Positions 4,826 through 46,336 of a stretch of DNA of 46,336 nucleotides are shown piece after piece. Where the stretch lies: the NCBI GenBank assembly GCA_021831565.1, contig JAKBMM010000019.1, forward strand, positions 1 to 46,336. The letters run 5' to 3'. The translations under genes and the position numbers were made by a program. Under the pieces are notes generated by a model, which saw nothing but the letters and a program-made list of their open reading frames with translations, ran no database searches and was not told where the DNA came from. Origin of the DNA: Planctomycetota bacterium (GTDB lineage: Bacteria > Planctomycetota > Phycisphaerae > WQYP01). Every line of letters starts with the position of its first letter. The first letter of the stretch is position 1.

Positions 4826-5797
4826 TTGAGTCTGGATGCTTCCGCGTATCGCGGCTTGCCGACGCTGGTTACGGGCGGCGCTGGTTTTATCGGTTCGCAT
4901 CTGGTGCGGGCGCTGGGCGGAGCCGGGGCGCGTGTCCGTGTCATGGACAACCTCTGCGCCGGCAACGCGGCGAATCTCGCGGAAGTTTCCGGCGACATTG
5001 AGTTTGTTCAGGGCGATATCACGGACCCGGTTCAATGCGAGCGCGCCGCCGCCGGCGTCGCCGTGGTGTTTCACCTGGCGGCCCTGGGAAGCGTGCCCGG
5101 CTCCGTGGCGGATCCGATCCGCTACAACGCAGCGAATGTCGCCGGCACGCTTCACGTGCTGGAGGCCGCCCGCCGCGCGGGGGCGCGCCGGGTGGTTTAC
5201 TCCGCCAGCAGCAGCGCGTATGGCGAAAGTCCCATCCTGCCCAAGCGTGAAGACATGCCTCCATCTCCGAAAAGCCCCTACGCGGCGGGCAAACTGGCCG
5301 GTGAATATTACGCGCGTGTATATGCCGCCGTTTACAGTCTTTCCACGGTGAGCCTCCGCTACTTCAACGTGTTCGGCCCGCGCCAGAATCCGCGCAGCGA
5401 GTATGCCGCCGTGATTCCGGCGTTCATCCGCGCGGTGTTGCGCAATGAACCGCCGAATATTTACGGCGACGGCCGGCAGACGCGCGACTTCTCGCACGTA
5501 TCCAACGTGGTGCGGGCCAACATGCTGGCGGGAAGTTGCTCCCGGCCCTTGGCCGGTGAGGTCATCAATGTGGCCTGCGGCCGGAACATCAGTCTCCTGG
5601 CCTTGCTCGAAAGAATTGAAGACCAGCTCGGCCGCAAAGTTCCGCGCCGCCACCTGCCGCCGCGGGCCGGCGATGTACGCGATTCCCTGGCCGACATTAC
5701 CCAAGCCGGAGAAATTCTCGGTTACGAACCGATCACCGACTTTGACGAGGGGCTTCGTCAAACGGTGCAATGGTACGCGAAGCACCAGGCGGTGTGA
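4826..5797 (+). CDS. NAD-dependent UDP-hexose 4-epimerase (WbpP-like)
   Basis: A short-chain dehydrogenase/reductase-fold epimerase of about 323 residues. It shows the NAD motif TGGAGFIGSH near the start, LAALGSVPGSVADP, the SASSSAYG serine region, the catalytic pair in SPYAAGK (Tyr about 152, Lys about 156) and RYFNVFGPRQNP. These features resemble WbpP/WbgU-type UDP-GlcNAc or UDP-GlcA 4-epimerases more than GalE, so the substrate is not settled. The preferred start is TTG at 4826, since AAAGGA ends eight bases before it; an in-frame ATG at 4772 would add 18 residues with no homology and no ribosome site. It lies 193 bases after ugd and two bases before the next gene. Confidence 0.88.
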   Translation: MSLDASAYRGLPTLVTGGAGFIGSHLVRALGGAGARVRVMDNLCAGNAANLAEVSGDIEFVQGDITDPVQCERAAAGVAVVFHLAALGSVPGSVADPIRYNAANVAGTLHVLEAARRAGARRVVYSASSSAYGESPILPKREDMPPSPKSPYAAGKLAGEYYARVYAAVYSLSTVSLRYFNVFGPRQNPRSEYAAVIPAFIRAVLRNEPPNIYGDGRQTRDFSHVSNVVRANMLAGSCSRPLAGEVINVACGRNISLLALLERIEDQLGRKVPRRHLPPRAGDVRDSLADITQAGEILGYEPITDFDEGLRQTVQWYAKHQAV

Positions 5798-5799
5798 AA

Positions 5800-6573
5800 A
5801 TGACCATATTCCTGTCGCCTTTGGTTTTTCCTTTCCGGCTGATCGATCGCAGCCTTTTTCCCCCCACCTGCTGGATCACCGGCGAGCCGGTGCAACCGGT
5901 GGATCAAGGTTTGTCCGGCGGGGTTCGCCGGCGGCTCGAGCGATTTGTAGGCTGGCCTTTCTGCCCGCGCTGCGGCGCCACGCTGGGTCCCTGGTCCGAT
6001 TTATCCGGCTGCCGCCGTTGCCCGGCGCGCCGCCTCGGTGTAGAGCGGATTGTTCGTGCGGGACCGTGGGACGAGCCGCTATCGTCGCTGGTGCGATTGC
6101 TAAAATTCCAGGGCCGCTGGCCGGTTGCCGCCGTCCTGGCGAGTTGGCTTGGCGCCGCTCTCGAACGACACGCCGCCGGGCAGGTAGACGTGTTGGCGCC
6201 GGTGCCCCTGCACTGGTGGCGCCAGTGGCGGCGCGGTTTCAATCAGGCGCACGAAATCGCCGCGTACACCGGCGGGCGGCTGAACCGGCCGGTTCTCGAT
6301 GTGCTACGGCGCGTCCGCCCCACGGCGCCGCAGACCCGGACGCAGAGCGTGACCGCCCGCGCCGAGAATCTGCACGGCGCGTTTGAAGCTTTCACCCACC
6401 CCCTGCTGGCCGGCAAACGCGTGTGGCTTGTCGATGACGTATGCACCACGGGCGCCACCCTGCGCGCCGCCGCGGCGGCCCTGCGGGCGTTGCCCGCCGG
6501 AAACCGCCCCGCCTCCATTGGCGCCGCCGTGGTGGCGGTGGCCGACTCCACGCCGATACCCGCGAACGATTGA
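5800..6573 (+). CDS. ComF-family phosphoribosyltransferase-like protein
   Basis: A 257-residue protein with an N-terminal cysteine cluster (CWITGEP, then CPRCGATLG and CRRC), likely a zinc-binding double-zinc-ribbon region, and a C-terminal type I phosphoribosyltransferase fold. The PRPP loop is VWLVDDVCTTGATL at about residues 207-220, and RGFNQAHEIA precedes it. ComF proteins are linked to DNA uptake in competent bacteria, but most homologues have no proven reaction. The ATG at 5800 is two bases after the epimerase stop, so the pair is probably cotranscribed and translationally coupled. No other competence gene is present here. Confidence 0.86.
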   Translation: MTIFLSPLVFPFRLIDRSLFPPTCWITGEPVQPVDQGLSGGVRRRLERFVGWPFCPRCGATLGPWSDLSGCRRCPARRLGVERIVRAGPWDEPLSSLVRLLKFQGRWPVAAVLASWLGAALERHAAGQVDVLAPVPLHWWRQWRRGFNQAHEIAAYTGGRLNRPVLDVLRRVRPTAPQTRTQSVTARAENLHGAFEAFTHPLLAGKRVWLVDDVCTTGATLRAAAAALRALPAGNRPASIGAAVVAVADSTPIPAND

Positions 6574-6690
6574 ACCGGAGCGTCCTATTTCGCCATGGCT
6601 GTGTTGGTGGGGGTGGGGCCTTGCTCTGCGGAGAAGCGCCGGTTATATTTCCGCCGGCTGGTTTCCAGCTTAAATTGGAGGTATCGCGCT

Positions 6691-7908
6691 ATGCCGGTCC
6701 AGAATCAGAATCCGATGTTCCGCATGACACGCCGCGGCTTTTTGCTCGCTTCGGGCGCGGCGACGGCCTGCGCCTTGGCCGGTTGCCGGTCCATGCCGGG
6801 CGCTTCCATGGAAAATTTTCCGAGGAAGCTGGCTCTTTACAAATCACTTTTCGGGATCACACCCCATGGCGCCAAGGTGTATCAATACACTCTGACCAAC
6901 TCCCACGGAATGGTGGTGCGGCTGATCACCTACGGCGCCCGCGTGCAGCGAATCCAGGCGCCCGACGCGCATGGAAATATCGGTGACGTGGCGCTCGGTT
7001 ATGAAACGCTCCCGCCGTACCTGAACGCGGACGATCCTTATTTCGGGGCCACCATCGGCCGTTACGCCAATCGCATCGCCAACGGGACCTTCACCCTCAA
7101 CGGAAAAACTTATCATATACCCATCAACAATGGTCCAAACGCCCTGCACGGCGGTCCGAACGCCTTTGACCGCCAGGTGTGGAACGCCACCGCGGTGCAG
7201 GAAGCGGGCCGGCCCGGCGTCCGATTCAATCTTTTCAGCCCGGCGATGCAGAACGGCTTTCCCGGCGACCTGGAAACAGCGGCCACCTACCTGCTGAGCG
7301 ACCAAAACGAACTGCTGATTCATTTACGAGCCAATGTCGCCGGTTCGCCCACCGTCATCAACCTGACCAATCATACTTATTTCAATCTCGCCGGCCCGGG
7401 CACGAAGATTCTTAACCATCGGCTCATGATCAACGCCGATCGTTATACTCCGGTCAACAAGGTCTTGATCCCCACCGGTCAGATTCTAACGGTGGCGGGC
7501 ACCCCCTACGACTTCCGCAAGCCGGTGCTCCTGGCCAGCCGGATCAAACCCTTCCCCGCCGGTTCCAAGGCGAATTCCGATCTTATTCCCTATGGCTATG
7601 ACTACAATTGGTGTCTCAACGCGCAGGACGGAAAAATGACTCTGGCCGCCCGCCTGGAAGAACACGCCACCGGCCGCGTGCTGGAGTGCTTCACCACGCA
7701 GCCCGGGTTGCAGGTTTATACCGGCAATTACCTCAACGGCACGCTCCAGGGCATTGGCGGCGCTTATCCGCGGCACGGAGCGATCACGCTGGAAACCCAG
7801 CACTACCCCGATTCGCCCAACCATCCGAATTTCCCGTCCACGGTGCTCACGCCGTCGGAAACGTATTATCAGAAGACGGTTTATCGTTTCCGCACGCTGC
7901 AACCTTGA
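6691..7908 (+). CDS. galM: Exported aldose 1-epimerase (lipoprotein mutarotase)
   Basis: Interconverts alpha and beta anomers of hexoses. The 405-residue protein has the family's GRYANRIANGTF, catalytic His in NHTYFNLAG (about residue 228) and catalytic Glu in ITLETQHYPDSPNHP (about 368). The N-terminus has a twin-arginine motif (TRRGFLLAS) and a lipobox LAGC, so it is probably Tat-exported and lipid-anchored, as is common for planctomycete sugar enzymes. GGAGG at 6677-6681 sets the ATG at 6691; an upstream in-frame ATG at 6595 lacks a ribosome site and would bury the signal. It follows the ComF gene by 117 bases. Confidence 0.93.
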   Translation: MPVQNQNPMFRMTRRGFLLASGAATACALAGCRSMPGASMENFPRKLALYKSLFGITPHGAKVYQYTLTNSHGMVVRLITYGARVQRIQAPDAHGNIGDVALGYETLPPYLNADDPYFGATIGRYANRIANGTFTLNGKTYHIPINNGPNALHGGPNAFDRQVWNATAVQEAGRPGVRFNLFSPAMQNGFPGDLETAATYLLSDQNELLIHLRANVAGSPTVINLTNHTYFNLAGPGTKILNHRLMINADRYTPVNKVLIPTGQILTVAGTPYDFRKPVLLASRIKPFPAGSKANSDLIPYGYDYNWCLNAQDGKMTLAARLEEHATGRVLECFTTQPGLQVYTGNYLNGTLQGIGGAYPRHGAITLETQHYPDSPNHPNFPSTVLTPSETYYQKTVYRFRTLQP

Positions 7909-7993
7909 CACGCCCGACCGCGACCGGGATGATGGGTTGTGGACCGTCTGAACCGGGAAATAGCTGGTTCTATTACCGCGACGGCGCATCACC

Positions 7994-8067
7994 GGGCTCG
8001 TAGCTCAGTTGGTTAGAGCGCGTCACTGATAATGACGAGGTCCCAAGTTCGAATCTTGGCGGGCCCA
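7994..8067 (+). tRNA. tRNA-Ile (GAT)
   Basis: A complete cloverleaf of 74 nt. The acceptor GGGCTCG pairs with CGGGCCC (two G-T pairs and A73). The anticodon stem CGTCA/TGACG encloses CTGATAA, with anticodon GAT at 8028-8030. The T arm is CCAAG-TTCGAAT-CTTGG. The 3' CCA is not encoded. It stands alone, not in an rRNA spacer, and is convergent with the regulator on the other strand. Confidence 0.96.
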
Positions 8068-8179
8068 GTTTCTGTACGCCTGTTTTGGGTCTGGTTGAAG
8101 GTGTTCGTGGAAAATCCGGATGGCTGACAACCAGCCCGCCCGCGAATCATGTGAACCAGCAGCTCTTTGGTTTCGATCT

Positions 8180-9808
8180 TTATCCTGGCGCCGCGCTGGC
8201 TTCGTCGCCGGCTTTCTCCACCGGTGAAAGGCCCAGTTCCCTGACTTTCTTGTTGAGCGTGTTGCGATTGATCCCCAGGAAATCCGCCGCCTTGATCTTC
8301 ACGTTTTCGCAGCGCTGGAGCGCCTTGGCCAGCAGCGCCTTTTCCACATGACCAATAACCAGATCGTAGATCTGCCCCTCCCGCAAGGCGTATTCACCGA
8401 TCGAGAGTTCGGCCAACCGGGCGACCAATTCCTCCAGGTTCTCGCTGGCCAGGCTGGCGCGGCCCTCCTGGGCGAAAGTTCGGATAGCCGTGGGAAGAAG
8501 GTCTTCCGTGAGTGTGTCGCCCCGGCTAAGCACCACCGCGCGTTCGATGGCGTTTTCCAACTCGCGCACATTGCCCGGCCAGGGATAACGCACCAGTATG
8601 TTGAGCATTTCCCGGCTTATCTTGTTGAGATTCTTGCCATTCTCCGCATTGAGTTTGTCCAGAAAAAAGTCGATCAGGCGGGGAATGTCCGCGCGGCGGT
8701 TGCGCAGTGCCGGTAGATGAATCGTCACCACGTTCAGGCGATAGAACAGGTCTTCGCGGAAGCGGCCCCGGGCGACCTCTTCCTGGAGGTTCAAGTTGGT
8801 GGCGGCGATGATGCGCACATCGACACGGATGGTTTTGTTGTCGCCCACCCGTTCCAATTCCCTCTCCTGAAGTACGCGCAGCAGCTTGACCTGCAGGCCC
8901 GTGTCGAGGGTGCCGATTTCATCCAGGAAAAGCGTGCCGGTGTGGGCAACTTCAAAGCGGCCCATTTTGTCGCGAATCGCTCCGGTGAAACTGCCCCGGA
9001 CGTGGCCGAAAAGCTCCGATTCCAGCAGCGTACCGCTTAACGCCCCGCAGTTGACGCGAATAAACGGCTTGTCCGCCCGGTTGGAATTGAAGTGAATCGC
9101 CTTGGCTATCAATTCCTTGCCCGTGCCGGTCTCGCCCAGCAGCAGAACCGTCGCCCGGCTGGTCGCCACCTGCGCGATGGCGTCAAAAACTTCGATCATG
9201 GCCGGAGAAGCGCCGATGATGTTGTCGAACTTGTACTTGCTCTGGAGGGTGTTGCGAAGCTGGCGGCGTTCTTCCCGCCATTCTTCGCGCTCCGTGGCGA
9301 CGATCGTGTTGATCTTAATCGCCTGGGCGATGAAAGCGGCGATGATTTCCAGTACGCGCTGATCATGGGCCAAACTCTGGGAATCAACAAACGGTTTATC
9401 CACCGATAGCGCACCGATCACGCGGGCGTCGATTTGGATCGGCACGCAGATAAAACTGATCCGGTGGCCGGCCAGCGCGGCCCGCGCGCCGGTACGATTG
9501 AGAAACTGCACGTCCTTGGCGATATCCTCAACCACACGCGGACGGCCCGTCGCCACCACCTGGCCCGTAACGCCCTCGCCCATGTCGTAGCGGCCACGCT
9601 GAATCTCTTCGGGGGTAAGTCCAAGAGCGGCTTGGATCCGCAGCTTGCCAGTGGTTTCATCCAGCAACACCATGGAGCCTCTTTCCATGCCCAGTCGCTC
9701 GGCCAGAACCCGCATGGTCTGCTCGAAAACGGCCCGCAGGTCCAAGCCCGAAGAAAGCACGCGCCCAATATCGGTCAGGATGCCAAGTTCCAGTTCCGCA
9801 CGTTCCAT
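8180..9808 (-). CDS. GAF-domain sigma-54-dependent transcriptional activator
   Basis: A NifA-like enhancer-binding protein of about 542 residues. A GAF sensory domain covers roughly 10-170. The AAA+ domain (about 195-430) has Walker A GETGTGKE and Walker B TLFLDEIG, and its sigma-54-contact loop reads GSFTGA instead of the usual GAFTGA. A Fis-type helix-turn-helix ends the protein ([20 protein letters not shown]). It should bind an upstream enhancer and open sigma-54 promoters in response to a small ligand sensed by GAF; target genes are not evident nearby. The start at 9808 matches where the family begins (MERAELELG); in-frame ATGs at 9838 and 9898 are possible and no start has a strong ribosome site. 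Confidence 0.92.
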
Positions 9809-10036
9809 AATTAACCAATACCGCCATGAAGAAACCATATTGTTTTGCCATCCATTTCGGATGGAAAATTTTCCAAAGTAATCGACCATGCGCATCATAA
9901 GCTCGTGCCCATATTTTATGCAATCTCCACGAGCGAGACCTAAAAAATGCGCATCGACATGATAGCTCGCCTATTCGGTGAGCATTCAAGCGGTGAATGA
10001 GTTCCGATCGGCAGTTCATTCCTTCATAGAGATTTC

Positions 10037-10190
10037 GTAACCGTTCACGGCGCGCGGAAAACGGCCGCGGGATTGCGATCCACGCGGCTGCGTGGCTGGG
10101 GCGGCGCGGTGATTGGCGGTCCCGGCACACCGGGAAAACCCGTGCCCGCAGGGGATGTACGCGAAAAACATCCGGGGCGTGAACGGTTAC
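10037..10190. mobile_element. MITE-like element with 13-bp inverted ends and 8-bp target duplication
   Basis: The ends GTAACCGTTCACG (10037-10049) and CGTGAACGGTTAC (10178-10190) are perfect inverted repeats. The host bases GAGATTTC occur on both sides (10029-10036 and 10191-10198), the mark of transposition. At 154 bp it cannot encode a transposase and must have been moved in trans. Related full or partial copies lie at 2082-2401, 31021-31126, 39227-39510 and 46175-46336. Confidence 0.85.
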
Positions 10191-10204
10191 GAGATTTCGT
10201 TGTG

Positions 10205-10233
10205 TTGGCGAAGATATCAAGTAATATTATGTA
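10205..10233 (+). promoter_or_regulatory. Possible promoter just downstream of the MITE
   Basis: TTGGCG at 10205-10210, a 17-base spacer and TATGTA at 10228-10233, about 27 bases before the start at 10260. It begins seven bases after the target duplication. Confidence 0.35.
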
Positions 10234-10259
10234 TATGGGGATTTCTTAGGGAATGTCCT

Positions 10260-12554
10260 ATGTACCCGTTTGAATTTTTCCGAATGGCGCGCCGTCATTT
10301 TTCCAACCCTCTTGGCATGACGCTGGGAATTATTTTCTTTTTGTTCGGATCACGCCAAATGGTTGTCTTCGCCGCACGCACGGCGGTACCGCCTTCTCCG
10401 CCGCGCGCCGCCGGACTGTATTCATCGCAAACCATTTCCTATTCCAAGGCGATTGTGGGATTGGCTTGCGGAGACTGGGCCTCTCAACAGAAATGGCAAT
10501 CAGCGGCGGAACAAGCGTTTATCAGTCAGTTGCGGGCCATGGTTCGCCTGGCCGGCCCGGAGCAACGGGCCCGCGTTGTCCGCGTGCTTGAATTTCAAGA
10601 AGGTCTGCTGCGTTGGGTGGAGGATACCGAGTTTCAACCCATGGCGGAAACATCGGCTTTAGCAAAATTCTGGCTACGCGGAAAACATGCGGACCTCATC
10701 GCGGAGATGTTTTCCGATAAGCCCAACCGACGGGCGCTGGGGCTGGCGCGGGTTGCAAAAATTCCCGGCTGGCAGGCCGATGCCGTGCTGGGCTGGCAAC
10801 TCCACGATCTGGCGGGTTCCAACACCCTGATCGTCTCCGCCGCCGCCAACGGATTGGCCGAACGGACTCCCGGCGAAGAGTTAATTCACTCCGTATCGAG
10901 GTATTATCTTGGTCTGAAACCAAGCCGAGCCCGGGCGTGGGTGAACGTTCTTGGAAAAGAGTATTTTGCACGAGTCTTTCGTCAGTACAACCGCAGGCAG
11001 TTGACCAATCTCCTGTCTCTGCTGCTTCTTCACTGGCATTCGAACAAGCTCGCGCGGTCGCTGGATGAAGCACTGGGGATGAGCAATTATCCTCTGTTGC
11101 GTCCTTTGAAGGATATTGGGACCTGCACCTTTGGCGCGCGGTTAATTCTCGCTGTGAAACCAAAAGACGCCGTGCCTGCCCTGCTGGCCATGGTCCATCA
11201 ACCATTTATCGGTGCAGTATTCCCCCAGCCGGACTACTGGGATTATCGCACCGCGGCGCTTTACGTGTTGATTCGGTTCATCGGAAAGAAGCCGGCGGAT
11301 TATCACTTTCGCAGGGTGACCGGTTTTCAAGGTGGAACTTCTCCGCCAATTTGGTGCGTTACTTCCCGGTCGGATCAGAGGAAAGATATAGTGGATGTGA
11401 CGCGCTGGTGCCAGGCGCATGGCCTCGTCCCCAAGGCGCCGCCCCCATGGACAGCAACCCCCGTTGAACCTACGACCAGCGAAATCCGTAAGTGGGCCGA
11501 TGCGGCCGATCTCCAGATTGGGCGGAGCCTGGGGGAACTGGGAGCAAGCCGTTTTCAGGTGCGGCGGCAAGCCTGCCTACAACTCCGGAAAGGGATCACC
11601 GGCCAGCTTCGCGCCCTCGTGTTGGCGGAAGCCAGAAGTCGTTGGCAAAACACCTGGCCGCTGATTGATTTCGAGTACGGTTTTACACGCTGGACGCTTT
11701 TGGCCATGGAAGCTCCAAAGACGTTGCGCCAACGCGAGTTACGCTGGGGCTTCATGAAGGCGAACCGGTCCCTGGCGGCCGATGCTTACTCACAGGAATA
11801 TTATCTACGCGCCAAGGCGGCAAAATTGTTGTCGCGGAGAAGGAATGATCCAATCGCCATGCGGCTGCTGGCCGACATGCTGATGGTGCGAACACAATAT
11901 GTTTTCCTCCATGCCGCGATCACGGTCAATCAGATCGGTCCCACATCCTTGATGGTCCGGAGACTCTACCAGGGCTGCCAACCACCCGGAGTCAACAACA
12001 TACAAACGCAACCGCCTGGCCGACAGGTGGTGTTGCTCGGGTGGAAAATGTCGCCACCTCCAATCCATCCGCCTATTGACAGGTTTCACGAAGTGGACGC
12101 CCGTATCCTCGAACGCTGGAAACCGGCGATTGTCTCTAAATTGCTGGTGGACACTCTTGCCAACTGGTTGGCCCAAAGCCGGAAAAATGGCGGACGCTTG
12201 TTCGACGTACAGGAGGGATTGGGAACGTGGAGAGGATTCATGAAACTCTTTGCCATATATCATCCCCGCGCCGCGGTTCCTTACCTGCTTAAGCTTGTCC
12301 ATACCACCGACGATTGGTCCGGGAGTTTTTCCCTTGGCGGCGTAACCTATTTCCACAACATTCAAACCAATCTGCTCCTCCTGCTGATTCAGACCGCCGG
12401 CAAAAACCCCAAAGATTTTGGAATGGCGCGCACTCATAGTTCGTACGTGAATCGATGGGGGTTCAAGTCAACGCAACAGCAAGAAGCCGCCATCCAGGCG
12501 ATGACGATATGGTGGGCGAAAAATCCCTCCGGCCGTAAGCGTCCGGGGAAATAA
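10260..12554 (+). CDS. Large exported protein of unknown function
   Basis: A 764-residue protein not assigned to a family. Residues about 17-40 form one hydrophobic segment after a basic start (MARRHFSNP), giving a likely signal peptide or anchor. The rest is soluble and alpha-helical in look, rich in Arg, Trp and Leu. Short helical stretches such as AVPALLAMVHQP and AVPYLLKLVHTTDDW suggest degenerate HEAT/ARM-like repeats, but no period could be fixed. The start at 10260 follows AGGGA at good spacing. An open frame extends upstream to 10113, but that part lies in the MITE and is not native. A terminator-like hairpin follows the stop codon. Function unknown; a periplasmic scaffold is only a guess. 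Confidence 0.7.
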   Translation: MYPFEFFRMARRHFSNPLGMTLGIIFFLFGSRQMVVFAARTAVPPSPPRAAGLYSSQTISYSKAIVGLACGDWASQQKWQSAAEQAFISQLRAMVRLAGPEQRARVVRVLEFQEGLLRWVEDTEFQPMAETSALAKFWLRGKHADLIAEMFSDKPNRRALGLARVAKIPGWQADAVLGWQLHDLAGSNTLIVSAAANGLAERTPGEELIHSVSRYYLGLKPSRARAWVNVLGKEYFARVFRQYNRRQLTNLLSLLLLHWHSNKLARSLDEALGMSNYPLLRPLKDIGTCTFGARLILAVKPKDAVPALLAMVHQPFIGAVFPQPDYWDYRTAALYVLIRFIGKKPADYHFRRVTGFQGGTSPPIWCVTSRSDQRKDIVDVTRWCQAHGLVPKAPPPWTATPVEPTTSEIRKWADAADLQIGRSLGELGASRFQVRRQACLQLRKGITGQLRALVLAEARSRWQNTWPLIDFEYGFTRWTLLAMEAPKTLRQRELRWGFMKANRSLAADAYSQEYYLRAKAAKLLSRRRNDPIAMRLLADMLMVRTQYVFLHAAITVNQIGPTSLMVRRLYQGCQPPGVNNIQTQPPGRQVVLLGWKMSPPPIHPPIDRFHEVDARILERWKPAIVSKLLVDTLANWLAQSRKNGGRLFDVQEGLGTWRGFMKLFAIYHPRAAVPYLLKLVHTTDDWSGSFSLGGVTYFHNIQTNLLLLLIQTAGKNPKDFGMARTHSSYVNRWGFKSTQQQEAAIQAMTIWWAKNPSGRKRPGK

Positions 12555-26926: not shown

Positions 26927-27015
26927 TTTACCGCGGGGGACGCCGAGGATCGCAGAGGTTTATTTTTATTGGTGACACGGTCAGCAGGCTGACCCGTTAA
27001 ACACCGTTTTCCTTG
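26927..27015. repeat. 89-bp dispersed repeat unit
   Basis: Differs at one base from 30932-31020. It includes CCGAGGATCGCAGAGG, an AT-rich stretch and the palindrome GGTCAGCAGGCTGACC. The distal two thirds also occurs at about 39344-39401 and, inverted, at the right end of the window. The rest of 26822-27267 holds a TCCCGA/TCGGGA hairpin near 27222 but no gene. Confidence 0.8.
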
Positions 27016-30931: not shown

Positions 30932-31126
30932 TTTACCGCGGGGGACGCCGAGGATCGCAGAGGTTTATTTTTATTGGTTACACGGTCAGCAGGCTGACCC
31001 GTTAAACACCGTTTTCCTTGCGGTTACGGACGGCCGTGGATTTCCATCCACGGCTGACAGAGCACTAGGGGCAGCCGCGAGGATCGCAATCCCGCGGCCG
31101 TTTTCCGCGCCGCCGTGAACGGTTAC
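30932..31126. repeat. Composite dispersed repeat ending in CGTGAACGGTTAC
   Basis: The left 89 bases match 26927-27015 with one difference. The right part (31021-31126) is an inverted copy of the unit at 46175 and carries TGGATttccATCCA and GACAGAGCACTAG at its apex, where the copy at 39402-39510 has a different insert. It ends with the family's terminal sequence. The segment to 31287 holds no gene. Confidence 0.75.
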
Positions 31127-31287: not shown

Positions 31288-32625
31288 ATGAGCCTTCATT
31301 TTTTAGCCATTCTCGTGGCGATTCTTTCGCTGGGGCCCGGGGCGCTTTATCTGCTCCGGCGGGGGCGGGATCCCTTTGCCCCGCCGATATTCATCGGCGG
31401 ATGCGCCTTTGTGATCGCCGACCGAAAGCTGCTGACGAATCCCCAACCGGCGCTGAATCATCTGCCCGCATCCTTTTACCATGAATATTTATGGATCGTG
31501 TTCTTCTCCCTGGCGTCTCTCTACGCGGGCTGGTACTGGTGGAAGCGGCGGCATCGCTCCGCAATTCTTTTGCCGTCCCAACTGAAAGTCCCGGCGCAAG
31601 CGGGATGGCTATCGGCATATCGCCGTGAATTCAGGCCGGAACGCCTGTTGGCGGCGGGCCTGGGATTTGCGTTTCTCGCCTTCCTCTCTCTTGTCATCAC
31701 GCATGGCCACAAACATGCGACTGGTTATGTGAGAGACCTGTCGTTTCTGAGTGTTCCCGCCGTGATTTTTCTGATCCAGGCCATGATGCTGGACACAAGC
31801 TACGCGCTGCCGGCCATTTTCGGTATTGCGCTGGCCCTGAGCAGATATGTTCTCCGCTTTTTCAGCTATGGTGGTCGCGGGGATACCGCCCGCATAGCGA
31901 CCTTGCTGCTCGTGCCTTACCTGTTTAGGGGAACGCGGCCGCGTAAATTACCGCTGGTGATTTTGGCCGTCTCTCTGGCGATCGGGCTTATTGCACTGGC
32001 GAAGAGTCGAAAAATATTGAGCCAGGGCGAAGCCCCCAACAGAATCGAGGCGGTGGCGGCGGCGGTCAAACAAATGTTCAGCGGAGAACACCGCAAGTAC
32101 AGCCTCGGTCAGGAATTCGTCATTGGCGCCGCCGAGGTTTACTCGGTACAGAAATTACACAATTGGGATTATGGGCGCTTCGCGTGGAATGTGCTGGCGA
32201 CCTTTCCGCCGCATCAGTTTTTTCCCCACAAAATTCAGTGGCAAACGACGTGGGGCGAAGGGCCGCGAGGTTATCTTAACACCATTCGCAACGCCACCGG
32301 TCTGCCGTTTCTGACGGGCGCCGCCCCGACCGGTTTCGCCGATGCGTTCGTCGAGTTCTGGTGGCTTTTCCCGATTTTCTGGTTTCTGCTGGGTTATTGG
32401 CTGCATCATGTCTACGCCGGCGCGGTATACGAAAAACGCCTGGATTACCAGGGATATCTGGCCATTCTCTTTGTTGTTCTGCTCTACCTGGTCGCCCAGG
32501 GTTTTTACCCGGCTAGTTTCAATTTTCTCTTTTCCATCTTACCCGCGATGATCGCCTATCGCTGGTGCCGGGTGGTTCGACACCCCGCGGGAGCGCGGGA
32601 AAGATTCAGTGGAGTGGCGACCTGA
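31288..32625 (+). CDS. Wzy-like polysaccharide polymerase, multi-pass membrane protein
   Basis: A 445-residue integral membrane protein with about ten hydrophobic helices: an early one at 5-20, several between 60 and 230, then a long hydrophilic stretch at about 235-345 and three helices at the end. Length, helix layout and a large periplasmic-type loop rich in Arg and aromatic residues fit O-antigen/repeat-unit polymerases, a family with little sequence conservation. Its place among glycosyltransferases supports this. Polymerase versus ligase cannot be decided. No clear ribosome site precedes the ATG. Confidence 0.68.
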   Translation: MSLHFLAILVAILSLGPGALYLLRRGRDPFAPPIFIGGCAFVIADRKLLTNPQPALNHLPASFYHEYLWIVFFSLASLYAGWYWWKRRHRSAILLPSQLKVPAQAGWLSAYRREFRPERLLAAGLGFAFLAFLSLVITHGHKHATGYVRDLSFLSVPAVIFLIQAMMLDTSYALPAIFGIALALSRYVLRFFSYGGRGDTARIATLLLVPYLFRGTRPRKLPLVILAVSLAIGLIALAKSRKILSQGEAPNRIEAVAAAVKQMFSGEHRKYSLGQEFVIGAAEVYSVQKLHNWDYGRFAWNVLATFPPHQFFPHKIQWQTTWGEGPRGYLNTIRNATGLPFLTGAAPTGFADAFVEFWWLFPIFWFLLGYWLHHVYAGAVYEKRLDYQGYLAILFVVLLYLVAQGFYPASFNFLFSILPAMIAYRWCRVVRHPAGARERFSGVAT

Positions 32626-32803: not shown

Positions 32804-34012
32804 ATGAATATTATATTTGTAGTAAACGATTTGAGTGTCGAAGCCGGCGGCGTCACCACCATTGTTTGTGGCCTGGCCGATGCGCTGGTTCGGCGGAACC
32901 ACCGCGTCACGGTCGCAACCATCGACCACGGCGGCACGCCGGCGACACCGGCGCTGGCGACCATCACCCGGCTGGCGCCGGACCGGGGAGGATCGTCGTT
33001 GTGTCCCAGCCGGGCGTTGCAGGAATTTCTCGCCGCGCATATCCCTGATTTCGAAATCGCGCACATTCATGGAATCTGGCAGAGGCACGGCCACTATGCC
33101 GGCCGATTGGCGCGGCGGGCGGGCGTTCCTTATGTGGTTTCCACGCATGGCATGCTTGATCGGAGTAGCCTGGCCATGGGGCATCGCTGGGCCAAGCGGC
33201 TGGCCTGGCGGTTATGGGACGGGCCGATGATCCGTATGGCCGCGGCCGTGCAATGCTCCAACGACGCCGAATATCGCGTTTCGCCCGGACTGCATGGCCG
33301 ACCGGTAGTGGTCGCGGGCAATGGGATTCCAGAGGAATCCCTGACGGATATGCCCGCCCGCGGATTGTGGCGGGAAAAAAATGCGGTGCGGATCGGGCGG
33401 CCGGACCGGCCGATGGCGCTGTTTCTCAGCCGCATTCATCCGAAAAAGGGGTTGCAGCGCCTGTTGCCGCTATGGCCGCAACTGCTGGTCCGCCAACCCG
33501 ATCTGCTGCTGGTGATCGCCGGGACCGGCGAGGATGCCCACGTGCAACAAGTTCAATCGCTGGTTTGGCAACTGGGGCTTCAACGGCGGGTGTTGTTTAC
33601 CGGCCAGCTTGTGGGGCGGGAAAAGTTTGAAGCTCTCCGCGACGCGGATATGTTTGTTCTGCCCACATTTCAGGAGGCCTTTTCGCTGGCCGTCACCGAG
33701 GCGATGGCCGCCGGTTGTCCGGTGGTCATTACCCGCGAATGCAACTTCGAGGAGGTACATGCTTGCCAGGCCGGCGTGGTGATCGATGGCGGCGACATGG
33801 GCCGCTTTATTGACGCGGTGGACCAGCTCGCCACGGACCCCGCGCTGCGGCGAAAGATGGGCGGGAATGGCCGCCGGCTTGTCGCGGAGCGATTTACCTG
33901 GAGCGCCATTGCCGCCCGGATGGAACAGGCGTACCAGGCCATTTGCGCCGGCCGTCCGATTCCGCCCGAGCTCTCGCCGGGTGGAGGTATGTTTGCCCGC
34001 GGGCAAACATAG
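32804..34012 (+). CDS. GT4-type glycosyltransferase
   Basis: A 402-residue GT-B enzyme. NIIFVVNDLSVEAGGVTT begins the acceptor domain, IPDFEIAHIHGIWQRH lies in it, and VVAGNGIPEE opens the donor half. ALFLSRIHPKKGLQRLLPLW and PTFQEAFSLAVTEAMAAGCP (with the E-x7-E motif) complete the donor site. It sits 178 bases after the polymerase in the same direction. A short AAGG precedes the ATG. Its 3' end borders the direct repeats that flank the ATPase cassette, so downstream partners may have been displaced. Confidence 0.92.
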   Translation: MNIIFVVNDLSVEAGGVTTIVCGLADALVRRNHRVTVATIDHGGTPATPALATITRLAPDRGGSSLCPSRALQEFLAAHIPDFEIAHIHGIWQRHGHYAGRLARRAGVPYVVSTHGMLDRSSLAMGHRWAKRLAWRLWDGPMIRMAAAVQCSNDAEYRVSPGLHGRPVVVAGNGIPEESLTDMPARGLWREKNAVRIGRPDRPMALFLSRIHPKKGLQRLLPLWPQLLVRQPDLLLVIAGTGEDAHVQQVQSLVWQLGLQRRVLFTGQLVGREKFEALRDADMFVLPTFQEAFSLAVTEAMAAGCPVVITRECNFEEVHACQAGVVIDGGDMGRFIDAVDQLATDPALRRKMGGNGRRLVAERFTWSAIAARMEQAYQAICAGRPIPPELSPGGGMFARGQT

Positions 34013-34112
34013 AGGTGAATTTAGAGCAGGGGAGCCGGAGAGCCAAATAAGGATGGGATATGAGAGTGGCTCTCGCCGAGGTAAGACAACCCCACCTGCG
34101 GTCACCTCCTCG
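34013..34112. repeat. Left flanking repeats of the ATPase cassette
   Basis: Two short sequences, 34013-34036 (GTGAATTTAGAGCAGG core) and 34087-34112 (CAACCCCACCTGCGGTCACC core), recur in direct orientation but reversed order on the other side of the cassette at 35969-35992 and 35928-35953, each with one mismatch. Confidence 0.75.
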
Positions 34113-34153
34113 AAAATCTACAAACCGGCTGATTCTGAACCGGCAGAATCCTG

Positions 34154-34720
34154 TCAGGACGTTTTCATGCGTTCAATGAGTGCCCGCCAGTTTTTGCATG
34201 ACCACGTGAGCGAGGGTGGCATGTCTTTCACCGCTTGTCCAGCTTGGCATAAGTCCGCCAACTTCTTGGCTGCGTCAGCCGCCTCCTTGTTGTGTTTTAG
34301 TCTGGGGCCTTCTTCGGCTTCGTTCGTCTGTCCGGTATTGAGGAACTGAATCCAGTTCTCCAGCCGGTACTTGGCAAAGATGAATAAAATGCGGTCAAAG
34401 TCACTCTGTGTGATTCCCGATCGCTTCGCTTCCTTCCAGAACTCAGTCTTGAGTGCGTCGCCATCGTCACATTTGTCATCACAGTCCGCCCATACCATCA
34501 GCGTCGTATGACCACCCGCGGTCAAGCAATGCTTGAGCTCCTCGGGGGTCCGCTTGATGACTTCCGATCGGCTTCCACAGGGCTGCGCCCGGACAACGTT
34601 ACTTCCCTGCGCCCGAACCCACGGCGGCTTGAGAGCTTTCATCAGCTTATTGATAAACACTTCGTCGATGCTGGAGCCTTTCGCGCTCTCGCAGAGGCAG
34701 ACGATCTGCGTCCTACCCAC
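34154..34720 (-). CDS. TOPRIM/DUF4276-like putative nuclease, partner of the ATPase
   Basis: A protein of about 188 residues. It shows an acidic pattern like TOPRIM-type partners of OLD-like ATPases: a Glu near the N-terminus (VCLCESAKGSS), VWADCDDKCDD with a DxD, and FAKYRLENWI resembling the E-x-W motif of DUF4276 proteins. Catalytic identity is inferred, not certain. GTG at 34720 overlaps the ATPase stop codon and has a G-rich ribosome site; another GTG at 34747 would give a 35-base overlap. The two genes are clearly coupled. Such ATPase plus small nuclease pairs are often phage-defence modules. Confidence 0.65.
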   Translation of the reverse strand: MGRTQIVCLCESAKGSSIDEVFINKLMKALKPPWVRAQGSNVVRAQPCGSRSEVIKRTPEELKHCLTAGGHTTLMVWADCDDKCDDGDALKTEFWKEAKRSGITQSDFDRILFIFAKYRLENWIQFLNTGQTNEAEEGPRLKHNKEAADAAKKLADLCQAGQAVKDMPPSLTWSCKNWRALIERMKTS

Positions 34721-35825
34721 GGACCCACCCCCTGGCGATCGCTTCACCCATGGTCATGCCTTCCGGCACCTTGAGCGGCCCGATCCGAGTCGGGGAGGTG
34801 TGATTGTCTCGCCAGAGATAGAGCCCATTCTCTTCCCCGCTATTGCCGAGGATTTCCGGGTGATGTGAAATCACCGCAAGTTGGTGCTTCTCGTCCAGCA
34901 GTTCGCGCATTGAAAGAATCCAAGGTTGAAGTTCCGGCAGGCCAACGAAGTTGTCGGGCTCGTCGAGCATTACAGTCCTCGCGGCGCCCGTCTCCAGCGC
35001 CGCCCGTACCATGTAAAGTCCGATCAGCGTCCGCTCCCCGTCGGAGAGATGTTCAAAGAACAGAAGCGTCGGCTTGCTCGTTTCACTTTCGAACCGAAGT
35101 TGCAGGGCCTTGGTATTCATCCCCGCATCCACCAATTTGAACGAGCGAAAGTCCGGCCAAACGTCCTGCAGCAAATTCCGCAGCGCATCGCCCCATTCCT
35201 GCTCCTGATACAGCGAACGATACCACGATGTGAGATTGATCATTGATAGATCGGGATAGCGAACCTCGGCCTTACTCTCCCGCTCCATGCTGCGAGGATT
35301 AGGGCGAAGGATTAATAGCTTGGCGATCTCCTCCTGCAACAACTTCACTTTGCTGATATGGACGCCGCGCGGCTCAATGGCTCGCAGCGCCGCCTGCCGC
35401 CAATCGAGCGGGAAAAAGGCTTGATTCCCGTCCGCCCTTAGAAACCGCACGCCCTCTGTGTCGCGCTCGAACAGCGGCTGCCCATCACACAAAGCTTTCT
35501 CATGGATGACCCGCGGCTTCTCAAAGTCGCAAGTCTGTTCGATGTGGATTACGTACTCGAACGCGTACCCCTCCACGCTCAAACCCAGCTCGAACTCCTG
35601 CACCGTGCTGTCGAGCCATTCGGTGAACTCTAATCTAGGGATATCATGCTCGCCTGTACCGCCGAGCAATGCGTCACCGGTTCCAAAGTTCCGCAGCAGG
35701 TGTAACGCATCGAACACCGAACTTTTACCCGCGCCGTTGGGGCCGCACAATACGGCAAACGAGTCAAACTCAGCTTTGAAGTTCACCAAGCAGCGGAAGT
35801 TGTTAACATACAGTCGCGTGATCAT
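34713..35825 (-). CDS. AAA-family ATPase (SMC/OLD-like), candidate defence sensor
   Basis: A 370-residue ABC-type ATPase. The N-terminus has ITRLYVNNFRCLVNF and Walker A CGPNGAGKSS (about residues 27-36), followed by an insert of about 200 residues. The signature LSDGERTLIGL, Walker B TVMLDEPDNF and H-loop ISHHPEIL complete the site. This is the AAA_21 architecture of RloA/AbiL/OLD-like proteins. With the coupled TOPRIM-like partner it forms a two-gene cassette of the kind seen in abortive-infection systems. It is inserted on the minus strand in a glycan locus and flanked by direct repeats. Defence activity is inference. Confidence 0.88.
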   Translation of the reverse strand: MITRLYVNNFRCLVNFKAEFDSFAVLCGPNGAGKSSVFDALHLLRNFGTGDALLGGTGEHDIPRLEFTEWLDSTVQEFELGLSVEGYAFEYVIHIEQTCDFEKPRVIHEKALCDGQPLFERDTEGVRFLRADGNQAFFPLDWRQAALRAIEPRGVHISKVKLLQEEIAKLLILRPNPRSMERESKAEVRYPDLSMINLTSWYRSLYQEQEWGDALRNLLQDVWPDFRSFKLVDAGMNTKALQLRFESETSKPTLLFFEHLSDGERTLIGLYMVRAALETGAARTVMLDEPDNFVGLPELQPWILSMRELLDEKHQLAVISHHPEILGNSGEENGLYLWRDNHTSPTRIGPLKVPEGMTMGEAIARGWVRG

Positions 35826-35927
35826 GCCACTATCCTATTTGGTTCGGCGCCGTACGTCTATCGTTCCGCGACGGCGGTGCCAGTCATAGCTCTCGTAAGC
35901 TGTACGTTGCCGAAGAAGTTGATCGGT

Positions 35928-35992
35928 CAACCCCACCTGCGGTCACCTGCTCGCCTGTTCAATAGAGCAGGTGAATTTAGAGCAGGAGAGCC
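35928..35992. repeat. Right flanking repeats of the ATPase cassette
   Basis: 35928-35953 and 35969-35992 are direct copies, with one mismatch each, of 34087-34112 and 34013-34036. No gene lies between 35826 and the pseudogene at 36033. Confidence 0.75.
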
Positions 35993-36032
35993 AAGCTTGA
36001 TAACCCGCCGGTTGATAAAACCGCAGCGGATG

Positions 36033-36216
36033 CTATTGGTCGAAGATATCCCGTACCTTTATCACCCGGGCCGGATTGCCAAGCACCACCGTCCAGGCGG
36101 AGACATCGCGTGTGACCACCGCGCCGGCCGCCACAACCGCTCCGTTACCGATGGTCATTCCGGGATTCACAAAGGCGCGGGCGCAAATCCATGCGTCGGG
36201 GCCGACGGTGATCGGT
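36033..36216 (-). pseudogene. C-terminal remnant of a WcaF-type hexapeptide acetyltransferase
   Basis: Minus-strand translation from 36216 down to the TAG at 36033-36035 reads as the last 60 residues of a left-handed beta-helix acetyltransferase: [19 protein letters not shown], then [18 protein letters not shown] and [19 protein letters not shown] directly precedes the first of these codons and no homologous sequence lies further up, so the N-terminal two thirds is lost. Such enzymes acetylate sugars in colanic acid-like glycans. The break lies between the ATPase cassette and the next glycosyltransferase. Confidence 0.85.
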
Positions 36217-36283
36217 TAGAATTATACATTAACCGGGCAAGCCCCAAGCCTGAAAATGTCATGCGTTACGTAAACGCGAATAT

Positions 36284-36311
36284 TTGCCACACGCCTTGTA
36301 ATATTTATAAT
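36284..36311 (+). promoter_or_regulatory. Sigma-70-type promoter of the glycosyltransferase at 36333
   Basis: TTGCCA at 36284-36289, a 16-base spacer and a perfect TATAAT at 36306-36311, with the ATG 21 bases further on. The DNA is AT-rich here and abuts the acetyltransferase remnant. Confidence 0.65.
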
Positions 36312-36332
36312 AAACGGCTGGAAAATTCTTGA

Positions 36333-37433
36333 ATGCGAATATGCCTGTTTTCCAGCGTGTTTCTGCCACAGCTCGGCGGCATCGAAAACGCCAGCCTCCA
36401 CCTGGCCGACGCCTGGCGCAGCGCGGGGCACGATGTGGTTGTGCTTTGCGATACGCCCGCGCCGAGCGACTATGACCGCCGCTTCGCCTTGCCGGTTTTG
36501 CGGCAACCATCCGCCGCACAATGGCGGCAAACGCTGGCGAATTCCCAGATTCTGGTCTCCAACGGCCACAGCATCCGGTACCTGGGCCTATGGCTCCAAT
36601 CCGGCATTCCCTTCGGTTGGATTCACCAGTCTCTGCTGCTGGTCAAATCGGCCGCGCACGGCTGGCGGGATTACCTGCGGCCGCCGCTCTGGCGGCGGAC
36701 CACCCGCCTGGCGGATTTCAACGTCTGCGTCAGCGAATACATGAAAAGACACGTGGCCAATCCCGCCGCCCTAATCATCCCCAATGGTTTCGATCCGATT
36801 TTTCGGCCCATGCCGGAGGTTGCGGCCGGCGGGCATTTTCTGTTTTTCGGCCGGTTGATTATGGACAAGGGCATCGACACGCTGATCGAAGCGGTGGCGT
36901 TATGCCGGGCACGGGGTAAGGATTTGCGCGCCCGCCTGGTCGGAGCGGGGGCGGATCAGCAAGCCGCCGAGAGCTTGGCAGCCAGGCTGGGCGTGCGCGA
37001 CCTGGTCGAAATCGCGCCGCCGCTGCGGGGTGAGGAATTGGTGCGTCAAATCAATGCCGCGCGGGCGGTGGTGATTCCGTCGCATTGGGGCGATCCGTGT
37101 CCGTTAACGGTGGTGGAAACGCTCGCCTGCGGCAAATGCCTCATTGCGTCGCGCGACGGCGGCATACCGGAGATCGCCGCGGGTTATGCGTTGCTCTTCG
37201 CGCCGCGCGACGCGGGCGCTTTGGCCGCGCTGCTGATTCAGGTGGCGGAAGATGACGCCCTGGTGCGCGACGGGGAGGCGAAAGCGCTTCAGCGGGCGCA
37301 AAATTTCCCGTGGCGGAAAATCGCGGCGGAATATATCGCGCTCTTTGAAAAAACGCTCGCGGAGCGAAGACCGTTTCCGCGGCGCCTTCGCCGGGGCGCG
37401 GCCCGCGTGGCGCTGCGTCTGATCCGGCGGTGA
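36333..37433 (+). CDS. GT4-type glycosyltransferase
   Basis: A 366-residue GT-B enzyme. RICLFSSVFLPQLGGIENAS opens the acceptor domain, IIPNGFDPIFRPM links to the donor half, and FLFFGRLIMDKGIDTLIEAV lies in the donor site. The usual E-x7-E motif is changed: HWGDPCPLTVVETLACG keeps the second Glu but has Asp-Pro in place of the first, which occurs in some GT4 members. It has its own promoter. Its last 278 bases (37158-37435) are repeated exactly at 38877-39154, so the gene is complete while a stump remains beyond the inserted neighbour. Confidence 0.92.
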   Translation: MRICLFSSVFLPQLGGIENASLHLADAWRSAGHDVVVLCDTPAPSDYDRRFALPVLRQPSAAQWRQTLANSQILVSNGHSIRYLGLWLQSGIPFGWIHQSLLLVKSAAHGWRDYLRPPLWRRTTRLADFNVCVSEYMKRHVANPAALIIPNGFDPIFRPMPEVAAGGHFLFFGRLIMDKGIDTLIEAVALCRARGKDLRARLVGAGADQQAAESLAARLGVRDLVEIAPPLRGEELVRQINAARAVVIPSHWGDPCPLTVVETLACGKCLIASRDGGIPEIAAGYALLFAPRDAGALAALLIQVAEDDALVRDGEAKALQRAQNFPWRKIAAEYIALFEKTLAERRPFPRRLRRGAARVALRLIRR

Positions 37434-37435
37434 GA
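37158..37435 (+). repeat. 278-bp direct repeat, left copy (3' end of a GT4 gene)
   Basis: Identical base for base to 38877-39154, offset 1719. It covers the last 92 codons, the stop codon and two further bases of the glycosyltransferase gene. Confidence 0.95.
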
Positions 37436-37532
37436 GGCGATGCGGATGAAGAATATAACAATTCATGTAAAGGATATGTTGATATAATTGCGCTCGATGC
37501 CCGGAGGCTCTGTGGATATGATGGCGGAGCAT

Positions 37533-38744: not shown

Positions 38745-38876
38745 GCGACCACCCCTAGGTTCTGTTCGGCGCCGGTGCGCCGAGTCCATACAACGCCGCC
38801 AAATCTACCGTTGCCGGCCACCTCTCACAACCGGTCCCGTTGTGGGGACGACCCGGTGGCCTGCCGGACGCGCGGG

Positions 38877-39154
38877 GGCGGCATACCGGAGATCGCCGCG
38901 GGTTATGCGTTGCTCTTCGCGCCGCGCGACGCGGGCGCTTTGGCCGCGCTGCTGATTCAGGTGGCGGAAGATGACGCCCTGGTGCGCGACGGGGAGGCGA
39001 AAGCGCTTCAGCGGGCGCAAAATTTCCCGTGGCGGAAAATCGCGGCGGAATATATCGCGCTCTTTGAAAAAACGCTCGCGGAGCGAAGACCGTTTCCGCG
39101 GCGCCTTCGCCGGGGCGCGGCCCGCGTGGCGCTGCGTCTGATCCGGCGGTGAGA
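38877..39154 (+). pseudogene. Duplicated 3' fragment of the GT4 gene at 36333
   Basis: An exact copy of 37158-37435. It encodes only the last 92 residues of that transferase (from GGIPEIAAG to the stop), without the catalytic half. An in-frame ATG at 38652 could extend it, but that part is antisense to the inserted gene and unrelated. Not a functional enzyme. Confidence 0.92.
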
Positions 39155-39226: not shown

Positions 39227-39510
39227 GTTCGTCCCGGCGGGCATGGGTTTTCCCGGTGTGCCGGGACCGCCAATCACCGCGCCGCCCCAGTTATGCAGCT
39301 GCGTGGTGGAATCCCGCGGCCGTTTTGCGTCCCGCCGTGAACGGTTTATTTTTATTGGTGACACGGTCAGCAGGCTGACCCGTTAAACACCGTTTTCCTT
39401 GCGGTTACGGACGGCCGTGGATTTCCATCCACGGCTGCGGGGGGGCGACCATGGAGCAGCCGCGAGGATCGCAATCCCGCGGCCGTTTTCCGCGCCGCCG
39501 TGAACGGTTA
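39227..39510. repeat. Composite copy of the GTAACCGTTCACG repeat family abutting hisS
   Basis: 39227-39349 is an inverted, truncated relative of the element at 10037-10190. 39344-39510 is an inverted copy of the unit at 46175, ending in CGTGAACGGTTAC at 39510. The terminal GTAA, read on the minus strand, contains the TAA stop codon of hisS. No gene lies in 39153-39507. Confidence 0.78.
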
Positions 39511-40917
39511 CGCCGGGTCCAGCGCAGCGTGAATTTCTTCGATCAGGGTTTCCATTGAAACTGTTCGTTCGGAGCGGTCGGCGAGATTTTTAAGCTTGGC
39601 CACCCCCCGCTGCAATTCCGCCCGGGCCAGAATGACCGCCAGTTTTGCGCCCGAAGCCGCCGCCTCCTGGAGTAACTTTCCTATGTTACGAGTGGAGCGG
39701 TAGGAGCACTCGGCATGGAGACCGGGACGGATGATGCGCTGGCGGGTGGAATCCCACTGGGAACGCCGCAGTTCAAAAATCAAGCGCTCGGCGTGGACCG
39801 CATCATCCAGGGCGTTGACGATGAAAACATCGGGATTCTGATGGTTATCGAGAATAGCTTTCGGAATTTTATCGCGCCGGCGTAAAAGAATTTCCAACAC
39901 CACGTCGCCCATGCCGAACCCGACGGCGCCCAGCGAAGGCCCGCCGAACATTTCAATGAGATTGTCATATCGTCCGCCGCCGGCGATGGCGCGATTTTCA
40001 CCCTGTCGATCGCTGATCTCGAATACAAAACCCGTGTAATAGGCCAGGCCGCGCACGATGCTTAAATCAAAACTGCACATAGCCGCCAGATTGGTGTCCT
40101 TCAGGCGTTTTTCAAATTCCCTTACCGTACTATCAATCTTCAAATGACATAAATCCGGCGGCGGCGGCTCCCCCAATCTGCTATGACGATCCAACATAAA
40201 TGCTGACAATAAATCGGTCAGTTCCGAGAGAGATTGATTGCTCGTGCCGGCGATAAACTCAAAATAGGCTTTCTCCTTATCCGAGCATCCTTGTTCACGA
40301 TAAAGAGCTTCCCGGCCGGCCCGGTCATATTTGTGCAGCCGGTCAAGTATGTAAAAGGCGTTGGAGATGCGTTCCGGCGGCATAAACGTACCCACCAGTA
40401 CATGGGTCAGCCATGCACGGTGATTCCAGCCGATGCGAAAATCGTCGGGCGTCAGACCGAACTCGAGCAGCGCATCGGCGCACAGAGCCAGACACTCCCG
40501 TTCGGCCCGATCGGAAGCCTCACCGATGTAATCCACATTCCACTGCATGAATTCGCGCAGGCGGCCCTTCTGCGGCTGCTCGGCGCGGTAACAGCGCGGG
40601 ATGGAAAACCATTTGATGGGGCGGGGCAGGCCGGCAGCGCGCTGGGCGACCATGCGGGCCAGGGTCGGCGTGAATTCCGGGCGCAGGGCCAGGTCGCGCT
40701 GACCGCGGTCGGTGAAGGAAAAAAGCTGGGAAACAATTTCCACGCCGCTTTTGACCTTGTAAAGATCGAGCGATTCAAACGTCGGCCCGTCCACTTCCTG
40801 AAATCCATGGCGGATGGACACGCGGCGCCAGATATCCTCAATGTAACGGCGCACGGCCATTTCGTCGGGATAGAAATCGCGCGTACCCTTGGGAGCTTGG
40901 AAGTTTTCCGTCGCCAT
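39508..40917 (-). CDS. hisS: Histidyl-tRNA synthetase
   Basis: Charges tRNA-His. The 469-residue class II synthetase has QAPKGTRDFYPDEM at the start, motif 2 RCYRAEQPQKGRLREFMQWN, the histidine-binding motifs RGLAYYTGFVFEI and GGGRYDNLIEMFGG, GFGMGDVVLEI as motif 3 region, and a C-terminal anticodon-binding domain. It is of the longer type, with an insert around residues 200-270. The start at 40917 is where homology begins; no strong ribosome site is seen. The stop codon TAA lies inside the terminal sequence of a dispersed repeat, so the last residues may differ from the ancestral end. Confidence 0.95.
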   Translation of the reverse strand: MATENFQAPKGTRDFYPDEMAVRRYIEDIWRRVSIRHGFQEVDGPTFESLDLYKVKSGVEIVSQLFSFTDRGQRDLALRPEFTPTLARMVAQRAAGLPRPIKWFSIPRCYRAEQPQKGRLREFMQWNVDYIGEASDRAERECLALCADALLEFGLTPDDFRIGWNHRAWLTHVLVGTFMPPERISNAFYILDRLHKYDRAGREALYREQGCSDKEKAYFEFIAGTSNQSLSELTDLLSAFMLDRHSRLGEPPPPDLCHLKIDSTVREFEKRLKDTNLAAMCSFDLSIVRGLAYYTGFVFEISDRQGENRAIAGGGRYDNLIEMFGGPSLGAVGFGMGDVVLEILLRRRDKIPKAILDNHQNPDVFIVNALDDAVHAERLIFELRRSQWDSTRQRIIRPGLHAECSYRSTRNIGKLLQEAAASGAKLAVILARAELQRGVAKLKNLADRSERTVSMETLIEEIHAALDPA

Positions 40918-46174: not shown

Positions 46175-46336
46175 GTAACCGTTCACGGCGGCGCGGGAAA
46201 CGGCCGCGGGATTGCGATCCTCGCGGCTGCCCCATGGTCGCCCCCCCGCAGCCGTGGATGGAAATCCACGGCCGTCCGTAACCGCAAGGAAAACGGTGTT
46301 TAACGGGTCAGCCTGCTGACCGTGTCACCAATAAAA
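46175..46336. repeat. Copy of the GTAACCGTTCACG repeat family, cut by the window end
   Basis: Starts with GTAACCGTTCACG at 46175, contains the hairpin CCGTGGATggaATCCACGG and the palindrome GGTCAGCctgctgACC near the end. It is the inverted counterpart of 39344-39510 and of parts of 30932-31126, so it shows the fullest order of the long unit. Confidence 0.8.

Follow-up and report, generated by a model that had tools for sequence, protein, structure and literature searches.

The window, by which we mean the whole 46,336-nucleotide stretch of Planctomycetota DNA analysed here, carries two minus-strand genes between glycosyltransferases. One (34713..35825, −) encodes a 370-residue ATPase of the ABC/SMC-Rad50-OLD type, and the other (34154..34720, −) a predicted TOPRIM-like protein of 188 residues, counted from GTG 34720. 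By first start codon the small-protein ORF runs 34747..34154 (−), the in-frame upstream GTG 34747 giving 197 residues; GTG 34720 is the likelier start because homologues begin there and because it overlaps the ATPase stop. The resulting 8-nt overlap (GTGGGTAG; 34713..34720, −) likely couples translation of the ATPase and the small protein, as the original prediction had proposed for these two genes. In 71 homologous loci the partner start falls close to the final base of the ATPase gene, from 16 nt ahead of it to 1 nt past it (commonest offset, −7), and most starts overlap the ATPase stop, which makes close coupling a conserved trait, bearing in mind that these are the loci with a full-length, automatically recognised partner and that starts were picked near the ATPase stop, favouring close coupling.

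The neighbours on both sides are glycosyltransferases, a GT4-type enzyme on the left (32804..34012, +) and another on the right (36333..37433, +), so that the pair indeed sits in the polysaccharide surroundings first described for it; no defence genes adjoining the pair were identified in the window itself. An 87% identical counterpart of the right-hand protein occurs in a sister species of the same genus (G392). The 3′ end of this right-hand gene is duplicated (37150-37435 and 38869-39154, 99.3% identity), a recent rearrangement in the pair's locus. The pair has a GC content of 0.55-0.57 against 0.56-0.67 for the other genes of the window, and so falls inside their range or slightly under it; base composition was therefore rejected as a sign of transfer, the pair being no outlier in the window. 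A scan for promoters and terminators returned no promoter-like and a single terminator-like site, neither count exceeding that in shuffled sequences.

The ATPase possesses a Walker A motif (GPNGAGKSS), a Walker B motif (VMLDEPDN) and an H-loop (SHHPE), and scores above the Pfam cut-offs for SMC_N, AAA_21, AAA_15 and AAA_23. Its PADLOC matches to PDC-M25A, HEC-01A, AbiLi and mad3 are of similar strength. The AlphaFold2 model (pLDDT 91.4) is closest to Rad50/SMC heads and to retron/Septu PtuA (Z 19-21), with the OLD structure 6p74 among its Foldseek matches. Pfam, PADLOC and fold matches together thus support an OLD/Rad50-type enzyme, in keeping with the OLD/RloA-like assignment made from the letters alone.

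The fold of the small partner is assigned from three agreeing lines of evidence (motif, topology and top structural match), each inconclusive alone. The E…DxD…E-x-W pattern noticed at the outset corresponds to Glu11, Asp79-x-Asp81 and Glu121-x-Trp123, which are invariant in all 72 aligned sequences (the window protein and 71 homologues). In the predicted model (pLDDT 90.6), E11 follows strand 6-10 and the DxD ends strand 73-80, and the small protein thereby shows the mark of the TOPRIM superfamily, a Glu after the first strand and a DxD ending a later one. The model aligns best, at Z 8.0 over 138 residues with an rmsd of 4.2, to the TOPRIM region of Thermus scotoductus OLD, and the next OLD matches are two class 2 OLD C-terminal regions (Z 6.5-7.1); the Z of 8.0 is borderline, only ~1 above that of unrelated lumazine synthases (Z 6.9) in the same ranking. 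Taken together, these lines indicate that the small protein is most likely TOPRIM-like, as originally suggested. Foldseek against the PDB gave no match for the small-protein model at E ≤ 0.001, and its ranking, headed by cutinases and lumazine synthases with low TM-scores, was set aside as fold evidence. Sequence comparison with the PDB, using the single protein or a profile, gave matches at chance level only, and direct sequence searches with the small protein found no match in plasmids, phages or viral contigs. The window protein had no match in Pfam, NCBIfam or PADLOC, which agrees with the initial impression that it fits no named system.

Published OLD structures provide a guide to possible metal ligands. 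Burkholderia OLD uses E400/D455/D457 for metal A and E404/T506/E508 for metal B, and Thermus OLD uses E377/D431/D433 and D381/S478/E480, respectively (PMC6755086, PMC7049728). The structural alignments begin at residue 2 of the model against OLD residues 368 (Thermus) and 391 (Burkholderia); if these alignments are ungapped, E11 would fall on the metal-A glutamates E377 of Thermus and E400 of Burkholderia. In the model, E121 opens the first helix that follows the final strand, like Burkholderia E508, to which it may correspond. D19 is conserved in the core clade described below and is a candidate second-metal carboxylate. The small protein is most likely a two-metal endonuclease, in which Glu11, Asp79 and Asp81 would hold metal A, and Glu121, perhaps with Asp19, metal B.

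A homologue scan of 84,980 genomes yielded 80 loci. At least 72 of these (71 recognised automatically, plus L064), spread over many phyla, have a full-length partner following the ATPase; six of the remaining loci have shortened or broken ORFs, and two (L050 and L093) lack a recognised partner. Thirty-five loci form a core clade (ATPase identity 53-83%) drawn from Planctomycetota, Verrucomicrobiota, Acidobacteriota, Armatimonadota, Hydrogenedentota and Gammaproteobacteria, and a broad clade follows at 30-38% ATPase identity. A fully supported long branch splits the core clade (33 of its 35 loci) from the broad clade in the tree, which needs several changes of phylum, a pattern that would fit horizontal transfer of the pair. 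The distribution is patchy: counting its own genome, close homologues occur in 3 of 28 genomes of the window's family and in 3 of the 392 genomes sampled from the phylum. Both genes are under purifying selection, judging from dN/dS values of ~0.08-0.21, although dS approaches saturation in some of the comparisons. The sister species has an ATPase-TOPRIM pair of the broad clade at another place in its genome (L129 5231-6879), which by eye stands beside a YchF-like GTPase.

The genomic context of the relatives bears on function. The original prediction had staked its defence reading on homologous pairs occurring with defence genes, and they do so near 10 of the 80 loci by PADLOC, a count given without a background rate and hence not a measure of enrichment. 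HsdM, HsdS, the pair and HsdR stand in a row in L047, and HsdR lies close to the pair in L037, L038 and L051. The broad-clade locus L096 reads HmaA, pair, HmaB, HmaC, and HmaB is near the pair in L082. PADLOC places PglX upstream of the pair in L059; in that locus (3-10461), the pair lies between PglX and ORFs that by eye resemble PglZ and BrxL, apparently inside a BREX operon. In L026, a canonical HEC-01A/B pair (E 5.7e-62 and 8.4e-14) forms a unit of its own directly upstream of a close homologue; a TIR protein is found near the pair in L033, and a type IIG enzyme and a PDC-S09 protein lie ~3 kb away in L025. The relatives are thus repeatedly embedded in defence operons. Many other loci have housekeeping surroundings. 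By eye, the broad-clade pair lies between apparent gltB and gltD genes in Methylococcaceae (L079, L090, L092) and beside efflux genes in Chlorobiaceae (L060, L061, L065, L089); such a single conserved housekeeping place within a lineage is unlike a fast-turning defence gene.

The split arrangement invites comparison with named ATPase-TOPRIM systems. HEC-01, a Hma-embedded candidate of a class found by guilt-by-embedding (PMC12988326, PMC10855318), shares the plan of two genes, an ATPase and a small TOPRIM-like partner, and the broad-clade relative in L096 lies inside a HmaABC operon, whereas the window pair is flanked by glycosyltransferases and is not in a Hma operon. The window ATPase matches HEC-01A (E 1.9e-17), but PDC-M25A, AbiLi and mad3 score about the same. 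HEC-01B is weakly matched by 35 of the 72 small-protein members (best E 9.5e-7), more than any other family, although not by the window protein. When the small-protein alignment was compared as a profile with the canonical HEC-01B from L026, the probability was 2.7% over 22 columns, a value that says little because HEC-01B entered as one sequence. The canonical pair in L026 is also separate from the close homologue, and the core clade is split from the broad clade. PARIS (AriA/AriB, class 4 OLD) likewise encodes ATPase and TOPRIM on separate adjacent genes and shares the Glu and DxD metal ligands, but the match of the window ATPase to AriA (E 3.7e-13) is one among many, and the small protein has no Pfam or PADLOC match to AriB. 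PARIS is activated by anti-restriction proteins such as Ocr. AbiL (AbiLi/AbiLii) and RloA/RloB resemble the pair and its relatives in two-gene ATPase-TOPRIM order and association with type I RM operons; the window ATPase matches AbiLi (E 5.1e-17), but RloB has no match to the window small protein and matches only 1 of 72 homologues, at E 0.001. The class 1 and 2 OLD proteins, including Gabija GajA, share the borderline TOPRIM fold match and a similar metal-ligand pattern, but combine ATPase and TOPRIM in a single chain, whereas here the two are separate genes with no UvrD-like helicase after them. Since the small protein is not recognised as the partner in PARIS, AbiL/RloB or HEC-01, the pair is not filed under any of them; it most likely works like a class 4 (split) OLD system.

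How the pair came to lie at this site is a question separate from its function. Two short repeats do stand on each side, in direct orientation and swapped order, as first reported: a head repeat, AGGTGAATTTAGAGCAGG(G/A)GAGCC, at 34013-34036 and 35969-35992, and a tail repeat, CAACCCCACCTGCGGTCACCT(C/G)CTCG, at 34087-34112 and 35928-35953, the copies of each being 96% identical. Shuffles of the window contain 0.00-0.01 matches per repeat by chance. Both are parts of a ~120-bp dispersed intergenic element that begins with a hairpin and is found genus-wide. A complete copy (33988..34112, +), comprising a 12-bp hairpin (33988-34011), head and tail, lies on the left, and a tail part (35928..35953, +) followed by a head part (35969..35992, +) lies on the right, which accounts for the swapped order. 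A second, nearly full copy occurs beside a tRNA gene elsewhere in the genome (contig C16) and partial copies on contigs C12, C28, C80, C1 and C63, amounting to ~6 further sites without the pair; in the sister species, the stretch 33989-34111 matches at least 13 places. The upstream glycosyltransferase takes its final codons and stop from the hairpin, whose sequence differs in other copies while its pairing is kept. As the hairpin encodes the end of this glycosyltransferase, the element itself would appear to move, which suggests that it is mobile in its own right.

The sister species also provides a view of the site in a close relative. On its contig, an MNT-type nucleotidyltransferase (PADLOC PDC-S09, E 7.8e-27) is followed by a partner that is HEPN-like by eye and has no PADLOC match, and then by an acyltransferase, a carbamoyltransferase and a glycosyltransferase. 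The acyltransferase is intact there (213 residues), and the carbamoyltransferase (568 residues) is of the NodU type by eye. In the window, a truncated acetyltransferase does adjoin the pair, as a stump of the C-terminal 60 residues of a hexapeptide acyltransferase (36036..36215, −). blastn places L110 1483-1699 of the sister species on window 35999-36215 and L110 4055-5241 on window 36255-37438, so the stump is matched by ~2.35 kb that are missing from the window at 36215..36255, where the sister has the rest of the acyltransferase and the NodU-like carbamoyltransferase, on the side away from the pair. The damage thus lies at a deletion on the other side, and the sister locus rules out the stump as an insertion scar. 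Homology with the sister species ends within a few bases of the right repeat end (35992), the right edge of the segment absent from that species, and beyond this point the two differ, with the ATPase-TOPRIM pair here and the MNT-HEPN-like pair there. This one comparison would support gain or replacement at the right edge, with gain here and loss in the sister both compatible. The left edge has no such counterpart, since sister contig C183 breaks off within its counterpart of ORF 31288-32625, and a homologue of the left glycosyltransferase was not found in that species. Acquisition at this site, part of the original prediction, is partly supported, in that the sister lacks the pair there, synteny stops at the right repeat and the pair is patchy in the family (3 of 28), while the repeats and the stump no longer count as marks of a cassette.

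We accordingly regard it as unlikely that the segment 34013-35992 is a composite mobile cassette ending in the flanking repeats, a reading of origin that would be compatible with any function. The repeats exceed chance on both sides, and homology with the sister stops within a few bases of the right one; however, element copies without the pair at ~6 other sites in the same genome and at least 13 in the sister mean that they are not specific ends of the ATPase-TOPRIM segment, and terminal repeats specific to it, the mark of a composite mobile element, were not found, both repeats being dispersed in the two species. The segment contains no transposase, and the pair's base composition is unremarkable in the window. 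In the genome (~95% complete), no integron integrase exceeds the TIGR02249 cut-off, and weak integrase matches occur as they do in all 14 controls; an integron gene cassette was rejected on this ground. The mobile-cassette reading of the segment is thus the weaker one.

With regard to function, the kept gene order and the presence of relatives beside or inside defence operons make it fairly likely that these two genes form a split OLD-like defence module (PARIS/AbiL/HEC-01-like) of the toxin-antitoxin or abortive-infection type, and probably an uncatalogued anti-phage system. In known AAA:TOPRIM_OLD pairs, which are toxin-antitoxin systems, the AAA partner neutralises the TOPRIM_OLD toxin (PMC10440598), and AriB, the TOPRIM subunit of PARIS, cleaves tRNA (PMC12409363). 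From this analogy, by which the ATPase would hold the nuclease until infection, we infer complex formation, nuclease activity, a trigger, a target and an anti-phage effect for the pair. Specifically, the ABC/Rad50-type subunit would assemble with the small TOPRIM protein and most likely restrain or license it; when a phage infects, the ATPase would respond to a phage product or to altered nucleotide pools by freeing the nuclease, which would cut nucleic acid, either tRNA, as does PARIS AriB, or DNA, as do OLD and Gabija, and so halt the infection, with the cell itself probably sacrificed.

Two other functions were weighed against such a defence module. The ATPase fold is nearest to Rad50/SMC heads, OLD proteins can act in the cell cycle (PMC12796447), and several broad-clade lineages keep the pair in stable housekeeping neighbourhoods, all of which would suit a non-defence ATPase-nuclease engaged, as is reported for the archaeal OLD protein Cran1, in DNA repair or in chromosome or cell-cycle processing. 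A housekeeping role is nevertheless improbable for a pair with so patchy a distribution in its family and phylum, and with relatives that lie within type I RM and HmaABC operons or next to PglX. A selfish toxin-antitoxin pair, with a TOPRIM toxin and an ATPase antitoxin kept by addiction and no phage-specific trigger, would explain the overlapping genes in light of the neutralisation of TOPRIM_OLD toxins by AAA partners (PMC10440598), and would fit the MNT-HEPN-like pair that occupies this position in the sister species. Gene order alone cannot separate selfishness from defence, but relatives embedded in RM and Hma operons argue for defence, and we consider pure addiction very improbable.

If the pair is indeed a defence module, it belongs to a growing branch of bacterial immunity, that of the split ATPase-TOPRIM systems, in which few effectors are characterised. 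The clade is sharply separated, spans several phyla and conserves gene order and catalytic residues, with some relatives in RM and Hma operons. Its effector side is missed by the profile library behind common defence annotation, and a profile built from the alignment would make the clade findable; as a single small protein, the effector also offers a simple test bed for distinguishing a tRNase from a DNase. More speculatively, and with a low probability, the clade could be a distinct unnamed split OLD class whose TOPRIM effector, and possibly target, is its own; in this genus, the repeat-rich gap adjoining the acyltransferase could then be a site at which different two-gene modules of the toxin type are exchanged, ATPase-TOPRIM here and MNT-HEPN-like in the sister species. 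As a separate observation, the window holds a second dispersed repeat family, without a match in Rfam, that occurs in up to six copies (2082-2368, 10032-10191, 26927-27015, 30962-31126, 39230-39511 and 46175-46336), ~82-100% identical over aligned pieces.
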